64,000 bases of DNA from Vibrio marisflavi CECT 7928 (GTDB lineage Bacteria; Pseudomonadota; Gammaproteobacteria; Enterobacterales; Vibrionaceae). Each line of letters opens with the position of its first letter. Position 1 is the stretch's first letter. Position numbers and translations under genes: made by a program. The stretch spans positions 496,001-560,000 of the forward strand of contig NZ_CAKLDM010000002.1 in the NCBI RefSeq assembly GCF_921294215.1, given 5' to 3'. Of this stretch, positions 20,628 through 25,886 are shown piece by piece. The notes under the pieces were generated by a model. That model was given only the letters and a program-made list of their open reading frames with translations. It ran no database searches and was not told the DNA's origin.

Positions 20628-21530
20628 ATGTCACAACCCCAAAGTGCTATTCTTCCTGAAGCAGGGCCTTTTGCTCAATACACATTACTCAAAATAAATA
20701 GCAATCATGACTTAGTCCTGGAGCAGTTGAAAAAACTGCCTGCGATTGTCGATGAAGTAAACCAAAGTCAAAGCGACGCCAATGTTAATCTTGCTATCGC
20801 ATTTACTAAGCAGTTCTGGCAAAAGCTTAATGCGCCACTGCCAAGTGAATTGATTGAATTTCCGCAATTGGGTAAAGGTGATGTTGTAGCTCCAAGTAGT
20901 GAAGTGGACGTTTTGATTCATTGCCATTCTTCTCGTCACGATCTGCACTTCTATTTGCTTAACACACTTATGGCTAGTATTGCGCAGTACGTTGAAGTAG
21001 TTGATGAAACTAACGGTTATCGCTACTTGGATTCAAGAGATATGACCGGCTTTGTAGACGGCACAGAAAACCCGAAACATGCTCAGAGAGCTGAAGTCGC
21101 GATTATTCCTGAAGGGGATCATGCTGGCGGAAGTTATGTCATGGTGCAGCGTTTCATTCATAACTTGCCCTCATGGAATGAGTTATCCATGACTCAACAA
21201 GAAAAGGTTGTTGGACGTACCAAGCCTGACTCAATTGAGCTGGATGATGTTCCGGCTACTTCCCATGTTGGCAGAGTCGATTTAAAAGAAAATGGCAAGG
21301 GATTAAAGATTGTTCGCCACAGCTTGCCATACGGCAGCGTTAGTGGAGAACATGGCTTGCTATTTATTGCGTACTGCAATACTTTACATAATTTTAAGGC
21401 CATGCTTGAAAGCATGTATGGTGAAACAGATGGAACAACCGACCAGCTGTTGAAGTACACAAAGGCGGTAACGGGAGCCTATTTCTTTGCTCCTTCTAGC
21501 GAGCTTCTAGCAAAATTGCAGGCCAAGTAA
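20628..21530 (+). CDS. DyP-type heme peroxidase (YfeX-like)
   Basis: 300 residues. The hallmark GxxDG motif is in MTGFVDGTENPKH (~144-155). The GGSYVMVQRFIHNLPSW segment holds a heme-pocket region, and the proximal histidine is probably in KIVRHSLPYGS. No signal peptide, so cytoplasmic, as for YfeX/DyP class B enzymes that oxidise porphyrinogens or dyes with H2O2. It is monocistronic and ends at a terminator at 21568-21593. Confidence 0.93.
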   Translation: MSQPQSAILPEAGPFAQYTLLKINSNHDLVLEQLKKLPAIVDEVNQSQSDANVNLAIAFTKQFWQKLNAPLPSELIEFPQLGKGDVVAPSSEVDVLIHCHSSRHDLHFYLLNTLMASIAQYVEVVDETNGYRYLDSRDMTGFVDGTENPKHAQRAEVAIIPEGDHAGGSYVMVQRFIHNLPSWNELSMTQQEKVVGRTKPDSIELDDVPATSHVGRVDLKENGKGLKIVRHSLPYGSVSGEHGLLFIAYCNTLHNFKAMLESMYGETDGTTDQLLKYTKAVTGAYFFAPSSELLAKLQAK

Positions 21531-21567
21531 AGTTTCGTATAAAGGCCACTTTTCGAGTCAAATCATG

Positions 21568-21593
21568 AAACCGAGCGTTATTGCTCGGTTTTT
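21568..21593 (+). terminator. Rho-independent terminator of the DyP peroxidase gene
   Basis: 9-bp stem AAACCGAGC (21568-21576) with GCTCGGTTT (21583-21591), GTTATT loop, and T-run to 21593. The inverted-repeat element at 21595 begins directly after it. Confidence 0.88.
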
Positions 21594-21594
21594 G

Positions 21595-21861
21595 TAGGGC
21601 GTGTTGAACTTTTTCGATGACTTTTGCAGCAGTTTGTCGTTTTATTTCCACAAGGAAGTGCTGGTGCCTGTAGTCATCTACACAAGTCAGCTCTGACGCC
21701 GTAGAAAGGAACGACAAACGCTGCCCGAAGGGTTCGATTCCAAGGCTTTTACTCTTTGTTGCAGGCTAATCACTTAGAATGACTAAGCTTCATAGCCTGC
21801 GTCGCGATTAAAAGCCTTGGAGTTCGAACAAAAATTAAACTAAAAAGTTCAACACGCCCTA
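21595..21861. mobile_element. MITE-like element with 20-bp terminal inverted repeats
   Basis: The left end TAGGGCGTGTTGAACTTTTT (21595-21614) and right end (21842-21861) are exact reverse complements over 20 bp. The outer TA may be a target-site duplication, leaving 18-bp repeats that begin GGGCGTGTTGAAC. The 267-bp interior has no credible ORF. It folds into two hairpins: GCAGCAGTTTGTCG (from 21626) with its partner ending at 21724, and a long one from 21731-21751 with 21809-21829. The layout fits a non-autonomous transposable element mobilised in trans. No transposase is in this window. Confidence 0.8.
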
Positions 21862-21886
21862 AAGTATTCACTTCAACCGCCGATAC
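21860..21886 (+). promoter_or_regulatory. Sigma28 (FliA) promoter of flagellin 1
   Basis: TAAA (21860-21863), 15-base spacer, GCCGATAC (21879-21886): almost the exact flagellar consensus TAAA-N15-GCCGATAA. The first two bases of the -35 are the terminal TA of the inserted element. Confidence 0.88.
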
Positions 21887-21921
21887 GAAAATTAGGAAAC
21901 TTTAAACAAGGCACTCGTATC

Positions 21922-23055
21922 ATGCCCATCAACGTTAATACAAATGTTGCGGCAATGGTTGCTCAGAAGAACTTAGGCAAAGCAACCGACTTGCTCAATC
22001 AATCCTTGGAGAGGCTCTCTTCAGGGTATCGTATTAACAGTGCTAAAGATGATGCTGCTGGGTTGCAAATCTCCAATCGACTAGAAGCGCAAATGCGTGG
22101 TTTGGATGTCGCAGTACGAAATGCCAATGATGGCATCTCTATTCTGCAAACCGCTGAAGGGGCGATGGGAGAGTCAACTGCTTTACTACAACGGATGAGA
22201 GATCTTTCATTACAGTCAGCAAATGGTTCAAATAGTCGCTCAGAACGAGTTGCTCTCCAGCAAGAAATATCAGCTTTAAATGACGAGCTAACACGCATCG
22301 CTGAAACCACATCATTTGGCGGAAGAAAACTTCTCAATGGTTCTTTTGCGAACTCAGCATTTCAGATAGGTGCAAGTTCAGGTGAAGCTGTGCAGTTTTC
22401 GCTTAGGAATATGCGCCCAGATGGTATTGAAATGGGAGGCTTTAGCTATCAAGCACAAACAATGGCCCCTCCAGACTGGCAAGTCACTAAAGGCAATCAA
22501 ATGCTCATCATGAAATATGTCGATGCGTTTGGTGAACAGCAAAGTGTCGAGATCAAAGCTAAGCATGGCGATGATATTGAAGAGTTGGCTACCTATATTA
22601 ATGGCCAAACTAACAAAGTGTCAGCATCGGTCAATGAAAGTGGTCAGTTGCAGATCTTTATGGCAGGCAGTGAAACGGCAGGGACCGTCTCTTTTTCTGG
22701 TAGCCTCGCCGATTCACTAAATATGTCAGTGAAGGGGTACGAAACCGTCGACAATATTAATGTCACCGACGTGGGTGGTGCCCAGCGAGCCGTTTCAATT
22801 CTCGATACTGCTTTGCAATATGTTGATAGTCACCGAGCAGAGCTTGGCGCAATGCAAAATAGGTTTAGCCACGCGATATCTAATCTAGACAATATCCACG
22901 AAAACCTAGCCGCGTCGAATAGCCGAATAAAAGATGCTGACTATGCCAAAGAAACAGTACAAATGCTGAAACAACAGATTCTACAGCAAGTTAGTACTAG
23001 TGTATTAGCTCAAGCAAAAAAACAGCCTAACCTCGCACTACAACTACTAAAATAG
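21922..23055 (+). CDS. Polar flagellin, first of three paralogues
   Basis: 377 residues. The D0/D1 termini are typical: [20 protein letters not shown] and [19 protein letters not shown] at the N-terminus, and [13 protein letters not shown] plus a [20 protein letters not shown]-terminus. The middle ~100 residues are variable. It builds the filament after export by the flagellar secretion system. By position it corresponds to FlaF of V. parahaemolyticus or FlaE of V. cholerae (from memory of gene order). Its [17 protein letters not shown] segment differs most from the other two copies. Confidence 0.95.
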
Positions 23056-23181
23056 GCCAGAGTTTTCGGCAGAAAAACTTAAAGCTTTAGAAAAAATTTT
23101 CAGTTAATTTCTACTTTCTCTCACTTCATCACACAAACACTCACACTAGCGATTTTTCGATAAAAAACATCATAAAAAATC

Positions 23182-23208
23182 TAAAGAAAACCCCATCAAA
23201 GTCGTTAA
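23182..23208 (+). promoter_or_regulatory. Sigma28 promoter of flagellin 2
   Basis: TAAA (23182-23185), 15-base spacer, GTCGTTAA (23201-23208); 6 of 8 match GCCGATAA. The 5' leader would run ~75 nt to the start at 23290 and contains a hairpin and several GGA motifs. Confidence 0.7.
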
Positions 23209-23236
23209 TAAAAGTAACTCAAACAGAACAACTTGG

Positions 23237-23281
23237 TTTTCCGAGACGTCGGAAACCGGAAACTCGGAAAATCAATTGGAG
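23237..23281 (+). promoter_or_regulatory. Structured 5' leader of flagellin 2 with clustered GGA motifs
   Basis: TTTTCCGAG (23237-23245) pairs with CTCGGAAAA (23263-23271), and GGA occurs at 23251, 23258, 23266 and 23278, the last within the ribosome binding site. Two of these GGAs fall in the loop. This is the pattern of CsrA-bound leaders, but binding is only inferred. Confidence 0.4.
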
Positions 23282-23289
23282 AAATTATC

Positions 23290-24423
23290 ATGGCAGTTAA
23301 TGTAAACACTAATGTCCCAGCAATGACCGCTCAACGTTACCTAAACATCGCTAACCATAAGCAAGAAACAGCGATGGAGCGTTTGTCCTCTGGCTTTAGA
23401 ATTAACAGCGCAAAAGATGATGCTGCAGGTTTACAAATTTCCAACCGACTAACGTCTCAAAGCCAAGGTTTAGGTACGGCTGTACGAAATGCAAACGACG
23501 GTATTTCTATCGCTCAAACAGCTGAAGGTGCAATGGCGGAAAGCACTACCATTTTACAGCGCATGAGAGACCTTTCCCTACAATCAGCGAACGGTTCTAA
23601 CTCCAAATCTGAGCGTGTCGCGATTCAACAAGAAGTAACAGCGTTAAACAAAGAACTTAACCGAATTGCAGAAACAACCTCGTTTGGCGGTCTACGTCTT
23701 CTAAATGGTCGATATGGTACAGAATCTTTCCAAATCGGTTCTAACAGCGGTGAAGCAGTGATGCTCTCTCTAATGAGCATGCGTAGTGATGATTCTACGA
23801 TGGGTGGTGTATCTTATGTTGCAGCAAATAGCAAAGATGCAAGCTGGGGTGTGCCTCAAGGCGCTAGCAGTATGACAATTAGCTTTACCGATGACGAAGG
23901 ACAGCAGCAAGACATTTTAATTGAAGCGCACCCTGGTGATGATATTGAAGAGCTAGCGACATTTATTAATGGTCAAAATGAGTATATTGACGCGTCAGTC
24001 AATGAGGACGGCCAGCTACAACTTTTTGCTGGTAATAATAAAGTAAGTAGCCCGGTAAGTGTCTCGGGGCCGTTAGCGGGTGAGTTTGGTTTCCAAGAAG
24101 GAAAAGCAGTGACAGTCGATACTATCGACGTAACCACCATCGGTGGTGCTCAAGAAGCCGTGGGGATTATTGACTCAGCACTAGTTCATGTAGACAGCAA
24201 CCGTGCACAGTTAGGTGCATTCCAAAACAGAATGTCTCATGCAATTAGTAACCTAGACAATATTCACGAAAATGTGAACGCATCAAGAAGCCGCATCCGT
24301 GATACTGATTTTGCCAAAGAAACAACGGCACTAACTAAGTCGCAGATTCTTACTCAAGCTTCAAGTACGGTTTTGGCACAAGCGAAACAAGCACCGAACG
24401 CAGCACTAAGTTTGTTGCAATAG
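23290..24423 (+). CDS. Polar flagellin, second paralogue
   Basis: 377 residues from the ATG at 23290, which has GGAG upstream and the family N-terminus [18 protein letters not shown]. The frame is open to 23233, but that extension is not flagellin-like. D0/D1 helices are conserved ([36 protein letters not shown]) and it ends in [16 protein letters not shown]. It matches FlaB of V. parahaemolyticus by position. Own sigma28-type promoter and a strong terminator downstream. Confidence 0.95.
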
Positions 24424-24436
24424 TCAAAAACATAAT

Positions 24437-24484
24437 CTCCATAAAAGACAAAAGGGCCATTTGGCCCTTTTGTCTTTTATGGAG
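24437..24484 (+). terminator. Long terminator hairpin after flagellin 2
   Basis: A perfect 22-bp stem (24437-24458 with 24463-24484) closed by an ATTT loop. The inner part is GGGCC/GGCCC followed by TTTTGTCTTTT in the 3' arm. It is unusually long for a terminator and symmetrical enough to work in both directions. Confidence 0.85.
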
Positions 24485-24646
24485 TATTAGTCTTTCGATT
24501 CTTTTCTTCATATAGGTAAAGCGAAATAGCCTCTCTCTTCATTATTAAATCGAGTAATTCACCTAAAATATGCATATTCATACATATCATAAGATATTGA
24601 TATTGAATTATATTTTTAATTTCTAAAAAATAATTTAATTTTTTCC
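24485..24646. other. AT-rich spacer upstream of flagellin 3
   Basis: No ORF or hairpin of note is seen. The stretch is strongly AT-rich, as often found upstream of highly expressed flagellin genes, and may include UP-like or curved DNA. Confidence 0.5.
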
Positions 24647-24673
24647 TAAAGGTTATTTTCTGTTCGCCGTTAA
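24647..24673 (+). promoter_or_regulatory. Sigma28 promoter of flagellin 3
   Basis: TAAA (24647-24650), 15-base spacer, GCCGTTAA (24666-24673); 7 of 8 match the -10 consensus. The leader to the ATG at 24756 is ~75 nt. Confidence 0.82.
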
Positions 24674-24755
24674 AGGACTGAGAGAAATGAGATATGCCAA
24701 AGTGAGGTGAGAGACACTGCGGTATGTCATTCTTAAGCCAAAGGAGATCAACAAT

Positions 24756-25886
24756 ATGTCGATTAACGTAAACACAAACGTACCGGCTATGACGGCGGAG
24801 CGCTTTTTAAATAAAGCGACCGAAGGCGTCGATCGAGCCATGGAACGTCTCTCATCCGGGTACCGGATTAACAGTGCTCGAGATGATGCGGCAGGCCTAC
24901 AAATTGCCAACCGTTTGACAGCTCAAAGCCAAGGTCTAAATATGGCGGTGCGAAATGCCAATGATGGTATTTCTATTGCTCAGACTGCAGAAGGTGCAAT
25001 GGGCGAGTCAACCAACGTTTTACAACGTATGCGTGACCTCGCGCTGCAATCCTCAAACGGTTCCAACTCTCGCTCAGAGCGGGTTGCGATTCAACAAGAA
25101 GTGTCAGCTTTGAATAAAGAATTGAATCGTATCGCTGAAACTACCTCTTTTGGTGGTAACAGGCTGCTCAATGGTACATACGGGAACCAATCCTTTCAAA
25201 TAGGTGCGGCTGCTGGTGAGGCGGTCATGCTTTCTATGGGTAACATGCGATCCGATACAATGGAGATGGGTGGTACCAAATATGTTGCAACGGACGGCAA
25301 AAGTGACAGCTGGACGGTGACATCTGCAACTGATTTAACACTGAACTATAATGATAAGAATGGTGATGCGAAAGAAATCACGATTAATGCTAAGCAGGGA
25401 GAGGATATCGAAGAGCTAGCGACTTACATTAATGGTCAGACTGCAGATGTTCAAGCATCCGTCGGCGAAGACGGTAAATTGCAATTGTTCACATCTTCTC
25501 AAAAAGTAAGCAGTGATCTGACCATCAGTGGTGGATTGGCGAGTGAAATTGGTTTTGGCGCTGGTCAAGATGTTACGGTAGCAGATATTGATGTCACAAC
25601 AGTTGCCGGTTCACAGCTTGCTGTTTCGATAATTGATGGTGCTTTGACTACGGTAGATGAACAACGTGCTTCGTTAGGTGCATTCCAAAACCGTTTTAGC
25701 CATGCAATCAGTAACCTTGAGAACATTGATGAGAACGTTAATGCCTCTCGAAGTCGTATTCAAGATACTGACTATGCGAAGGAAACGACGGAAATGACGA
25801 AGCAGCAAATATTGCAGCAAGCCAGTACCTCCGTTTTGGCGCAAGCGAAGCAAACACCATCAGCAGCTCTTAGCTTATTAGGTTAA
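24756..25886 (+). CDS. Polar flagellin, third paralogue
   Basis: 376 residues, AAGGAG site at 24740-24745. N-terminus [19 protein letters not shown]1 helix [19 protein letters not shown], and C-terminus [16 protein letters not shown]. It is closer to flagellin 2 than to flagellin 1 in the termini. By position before flaG it corresponds to FlaA of V. parahaemolyticus or FlaB of V. cholerae. Filament subunit, exported by the flagellar type III apparatus. Confidence 0.95.

Follow-up and report, generated by a model that had tools for sequence, protein, structure and literature searches.

A MITE-like element beside a flagellin promoter of Vibrio marisflavi with an interior of nearly constant length that stays base-paired

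MITEs are mostly viewed as passive relics left when insertion sequences undergo deletion. Among the insertion sequences with which they can be compared, those of the IS5 family prefer the target YTAR. ERIC elements, which we take to be the 127-bp element RU-1, are short, palindromic, intergenic and spread over families. PMC2759123 describes RU-1 as 127 bp long. Bacterial MITEs derived from insertion sequences are described in the review PMC10969869 as elements shorter than 500 bp with inverted ends and a target duplication, which are present in many, mostly intergenic copies and share their ends with an insertion sequence; the review also places ERIC elements in the Enterobacteriaceae and Vibrionaceae. 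The V. marisflavi element described here has those same features of IS-derived MITEs, it resembles ERIC elements in the four traits named above, and its outer ends, like the YTAR-like target of its family, are those of IS5-family insertion sequences. It differs from the IS-derived MITEs in that its match to the insertion sequence found is confined to the outer 18-20 bp and in that its interior is a length-conserved covarying fold, present in 23 of the 99 sampled genera of the order. ERIC elements are set apart by their length (127 bp versus 267 bp) and by the matching transposase family identified here, a separation made on descriptions, while IS5-family insertion sequences carry the transposase gene that is missing from the element.

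The window, a 64-kb stretch of the genome of Vibrio marisflavi CECT 7928, contains the element at positions 21595..21861 of the plus strand (267 bp, counting the TA on both flanks), as defined from the sequence and by repeat and copy searches. Repeat search and end pairing bore out the initial annotation of a 267-bp element with exact 20-bp terminal inverted repeats. The left repeat (21595..21614, plus strand) starts with the duplicated TA and matches exactly the right repeat (21842..21861, minus strand), which ends in the duplicated TA; the inverted-repeat arms reported by the repeat search are 31 nt long and 87% complementary, and their outermost 20 bp pair exactly. Between the ends lie a left internal arm (21627..21723, no strand assigned; columns 33-133 of alignment A2), which is a long imperfect hairpin covarying across copies, a central mini-hairpin CCCGAAGGG (21724..21732, no strand assigned; A2 columns 134-142), the stem of which covaries in other copies, and a right internal arm with apical hairpins (21733..21828, minus strand; A2 columns 143-241), in which minus-strand G.T is dominant among the wobble-type mismatches. 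Folding of the element as DNA gave a z-score of -10.5, with none of 200 shuffles folding as well, and folding as RNA gave a z-score of -11.7. The longest open reading frame fully within the element encodes 31 amino acids, two others (73 and 33 amino acids) extend in from outside, and no transposase gene is present in the 267 bp according to this check. A scan of the element region returned no promoter-like site. Rfam covariance models had no match up to an E value of 1 between 21500 and 21960, which rules out a known RNA family as the identity of the element.

The element had been placed between the terminator of the DyP gene and flagellin 1. Both neighbours were confirmed by Pfam: the DyP-type peroxidase gene, a conserved neighbour (20628..21530, plus strand; Dyp_perox_N and Dyp_perox_C), and the flagellin 1 gene (21922..23055, plus strand; Flagellin_N and Flagellin_C). 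The terminator part was seen by eye only, as a terminator-like hairpin with a T run immediately 5′ of the insertion (21568..21593, plus strand); a scan of 21450-22000 reported no intrinsic terminator, this hairpin included, probably because its stem runs into the T run. The element starts 64 bases past the DyP stop codon and ends 2 bases into the -35 box TAAA. Three consecutive flagellin genes are located downstream of DyP in the window (21922-25886), and three flagellin matches were likewise found in 24 of 26 Vibrio loci within the stretch examined.

Copies of the element, for which the initial annotation had proposed a search, were found in the V. marisflavi genome, in the genus and in the order, which makes the element one of a large family in marine bacteria. 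The V. marisflavi genome gave four matches: the copy described here, one full-span relative (85%) and two truncated ones. Matches were present in 77 of 148 genomes of the genus sample, its own included (E ≤ 1e-3); five candidates were scored per genome, which makes the copy numbers minimum values. With copy L192 from another genome as query, 78 of 295 genomes in the order sample matched (E ≤ 1e-6), and these belong to the 23 genera mentioned above. A class-wide draw of 369 genomes yielded three, V. marisflavi and two of the same order. Thirteen plasmid records matched; the named hits lie on large replicons, seven of Pseudoalteromonas, four of Vibrio and two of Catenovulum. No phage record matched the V. 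marisflavi copy, and a scan of viral contigs for the element ends gave 49 stretches. The 111 copies of the first set occupy 84 independent sites, a number obtained by a crude de-duplication in which L183 fell together with L030 by chance and was lost. Long flanks are available for 67 copies: in 65 no open reading frame of 150 codons crosses the element and in one such a frame does; one copy joins such a frame across the empty site (coarse counts). The directions of the neighbouring reading frames relative to the element are ++ in 24 cases, -- in 15, -+ in 11 and +- in six, with a neighbour on one side only in nine.

An insertion sequence with the same ends was found in other genomes of the genus, as had been suggested for a search: it is 887 bp long and belongs to the IS5 family. 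Six genomes were searched with the ends TAGGGNNTGTTGANC, and paired ends 887 bp apart were found in at least G109 and G087; the same spacing occurs in G079 and G011 (L246, L247). The outer 18-20 bp are common to this unit and the element. It encodes a 253-amino-acid IS5-family transposase (NF033580, 261.5 bits at a cut-off of 110) with the domains DUF4096 and DDE_Tnp_1. This transposase was detected in 13 of the 148 genus genomes (E ≤ 1e-60), seven of which have a full-span copy without stops, and it was not found in the V. marisflavi genome (E ≤ 1e-10). Relatives are encoded by Pseudoalteromonas sp. HL-AS2 (65% protein identity, similar ends) and Alteromonas mediterranea (76%; the exact end pattern was not seen). 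Since the transposase was detected in 13 genomes and the element in 77 of the 148, most copies are now without such a helper or use other transposases. We propose that the element is a non-autonomous MITE that would be mobilised in trans by IS5-family transposases recognising ends like TAGGGNNTGTTGAYCTTT; the V. marisflavi copy is probably stranded, because no such transposase was found in its genome. The interior of the element shows no similarity to the helper insertion sequence found: comparison with copy L203 detected none past the first 20 bp (p 0.10-0.93), which rules out that the element is an internal deletion product of that insertion sequence. One internally deleted helper insertion sequence of 666 bp was observed (L201). 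The two bases following TAGGG (A2 columns 6 and 7) are CG, TC, GC, CC and others, and are complementary between the two ends in 30 and 29 of 32 copies, respectively, which hints at several transposase specificities.

TA is present at both ends in 75 of the 84 independent sites. With the outer bases included, the target in these 75 sites is TTAG (23), CTAA (19), CTAG (17), TTAA (4) or another sequence (12), so that 63 conform to YTAR; the V. marisflavi target, GTAA, does not and occurs in two of the 75. That TA is the target duplication, as had been supposed, was borne out at another site, where 14 of 148 genus genomes have a single TA and eight fetched copies from eight genomes (L008, L009, L010, L012, L014, L024, L172, L173) have TA-element-TA. 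A 4-bp duplication is ruled out, since the outer bases differ between the two sides. Insertion into the loop of a hairpin (stem of at least 7 bp) was seen in six of the 75 sites (L029, L006, L213, L214, L188, L202) versus 16 of 1,167 control TA sites, an enriched but weak signal; some of these hairpins are followed by T runs and are terminator-like. L183, lost in the de-duplication, is a further hairpin-loop copy outside this count.

At the flagellin locus, the right-hand TA is the first half of the TAAA -35 box of a sigma28-type promoter, as the initial annotation had stated. The flagellin 1 site TAAA-N15-GCCGATAC (21860..21886, plus strand), the TA of which is the right-hand target copy, is of sigma28 type by the usual consensus. 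Its part TAAA-N15-GCCGATA occupies 21860-21885 and is the single occurrence of TAAA-N14/15-GCCGATA in the window (0.07 expected). The history of the site was followed in 63 DyP loci (33 of 80 from a DyP search and 30 from genus genomes, some genomes being in both); DyP itself is present in 145 of the 148 genus genomes. A flagellin gene follows DyP within the stretch examined in 53 of these loci (40 distinct spacers) and was not seen there in 10. Only the locus of Vibrio marisflavi CECT 7928 carries the element; the 52 other DyP-flagellin loci (39 distinct spacers) lack it, so that it is not fixed at this locus in relatives. A sigma28-like site starting with TAAA is found in 49 of the 53 loci, V. 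marisflavi included, and four are outside the pattern. The Vibrio sinus locus, which has the most similar flagellin, lacks the element and shows TAAAG at an identical spacing of 15 bases. Because TAAA is already present in 48 of the 52 element-free loci, the -35 box is older than the insertion and was kept by the TA duplication, so the earlier idea that the end of the element supplies part of the flagellin promoter does not hold. Judged from these sequences, the promoter is retained as a by-product of the target duplication, with TAAAG ancestral and the TA a copy of the host target. The element would have inserted at the TA within the ancestral TAAAG, and since the duplication leaves TAAA-N15-GCCGATA intact, transcription of the flagellin gene could continue; the locus is a clear case of an element landing at the edge of a promoter that would stay usable. 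A host regulatory element kept to control flagellin 1 would also adjoin a promoter that is intact in V. marisflavi, but its absence from the 52 other loci and the unrelated genes beside annotated copies elsewhere make this very improbable. The element is short, lacks a transposase gene, has exact inverted ends and a TA duplication, occurs at many unrelated sites and shares its ends with an insertion sequence; we are highly confident of its identity as a MITE and of this insertion history, a confidence that does not extend to any role of RNA.

The interior of this MITE folds into a core that hardly varies in length and remains base-paired while its sequence changes. In the first set, 105 of 111 copies are 266-269 bp long and the others 280, 281, 282, 283, 297 and 318 bp, two truncated copies having been excluded beforehand; a further set gave 45 of 53, and both sets together 150 of 164. 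These lengths hold for full-span copies, as most copies had been selected among full-span matches, with extension used to place ends that did not align. Thirty-two copies that are under 90% alike supplied the structure, and in these same copies 95.0% of the cells are paired, versus 36.9-45.8% when the pairing is slid by 1-3 columns. Changes on both sides were found in 54 of 88 pairs, and the ends as well as the two internal arms covary; there are 288 cells changed on both sides versus 70.7 in shuffles, a value reached by none of 500. In 32 fresh copies, 88.8% of the cells are paired over 78 pairs. Such pairing could also be kept by repair between the inverted-repeat arms (template switching) without selection on structure: in every identity bin there are more paired changes than independence predicts, and covariation extends over both arms and the ends. 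However, copies at least 95% alike show 1408 single changes versus 77 paired Watson-Crick changes and 16 other doubles (copy pairs overlap in this count, and some of the single changes come from old dead copies), double Watson-Crick changes grow with the distance between copies, and the strand bias of the right arm described below is not expected if repair is symmetric. We consider repair an unlikely explanation.

The mismatches bear on which strand, if either, is selected. Over the 78 pairs predicted from both strands, the first 32 copies contain 37 G.T, 39 A.C and 70 other mismatches. This was first read as symmetric pairing and hence as DNA-level, a reading given up after the counts were split by arm: post hoc, these copies have 19 G.T and 7 A.C events in the left arm and 7 G.T and 24 A.C in the right. 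The arm prediction was fixed before it was tested on 53 fresh copies, 32 of which are less than 90% like all others. In these 32, the right-arm half of the prediction held (16 G.T, 62 A.C), and the left-arm half was not confirmed (19 G.T versus 17 A.C; 6 versus 6 in embedded cells, i.e., mismatches flanked by two intact Watson-Crick neighbours). Embedded cells of all 64 copies comprise 11 G.T, 48 A.C and 46 other mismatches in the right arm (A.C 17, G.T 5 and other 10 in the first 32; 31, 6 and 36 in the fresh 32), where other mismatches are about as many as A.C and related copies do not give independent cells; in the left arm, 13 G.T, 7 A.C and 16 others show no clear bias (p 0.26). As a control, 21 V. 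marisflavi tRNAs analysed with the same alignment method gave 17 G.T and 5 A.C; a count from ARAGORN brackets (24 tRNAs, 22 G.T, no A.C) was discarded, since mismatches do not appear in these brackets. A.C on the plus strand corresponds to G.U on the minus strand, and the right arm thus looks like a minus-strand RNA hairpin. This bias suggests that one strand, perhaps as RNA, is under selection.

Selection of the fold as double-stranded DNA, as a cruciform or as transposase-binding hairpins, would agree with the equal numbers of G.T and A.C over all 78 pairs in the first copies, with the lack of a clear bias in the left arm and with the fact that both ends must match for one transposase. It is rather unlikely in our view, as the right arm favours the minus-strand wobble in two sets of copies and the tRNA ratio resembles the one obtained for the right arm when its minus strand is read. 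We tentatively favour single-strand selection of the right arm, acting on the minus strand and most likely on RNA from transcripts running into the element. A broader reading seems possible though doubtful: the element may belong to an order-wide, length-locked MITE family with its own selected RNA-like fold, in which each arm hairpin is read on the strand that enters from the end closer to it, clearly so in the right arm and no more than a tendency in the left. The element would then have a function beyond its ends, for example making insertions harmless by handling incoming transcripts.

A search of the PMC literature returned no description of the element, and a prior registration in ISfinder is possible. 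New here are the constant full-span length, the covarying ends and arms and the strand bias of the right arm, which may point to a function. Unlike what the relic view implies, the interior shows no similarity to the helper found, keeps its length nearly constant over many genera and is held in its fold by compensatory change, and it becomes testable whether MITE interiors are selected, at the level of DNA or RNA.

Some copies depart from the common form. L202 and L203, both from G109, have an extra GC-rich stretch of approximately 13-14 bp at the base of the right arm, resulting in 282 and 281 bp. At the right TA of L015, another end-like sequence starts. L239 (G723:C11:98518-99062) consists of two direct tandem copies that overlap by two bases, apparently one common TA. 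L207 and L208 are short derivatives of 55 and 92 bp, in which both element ends are kept.
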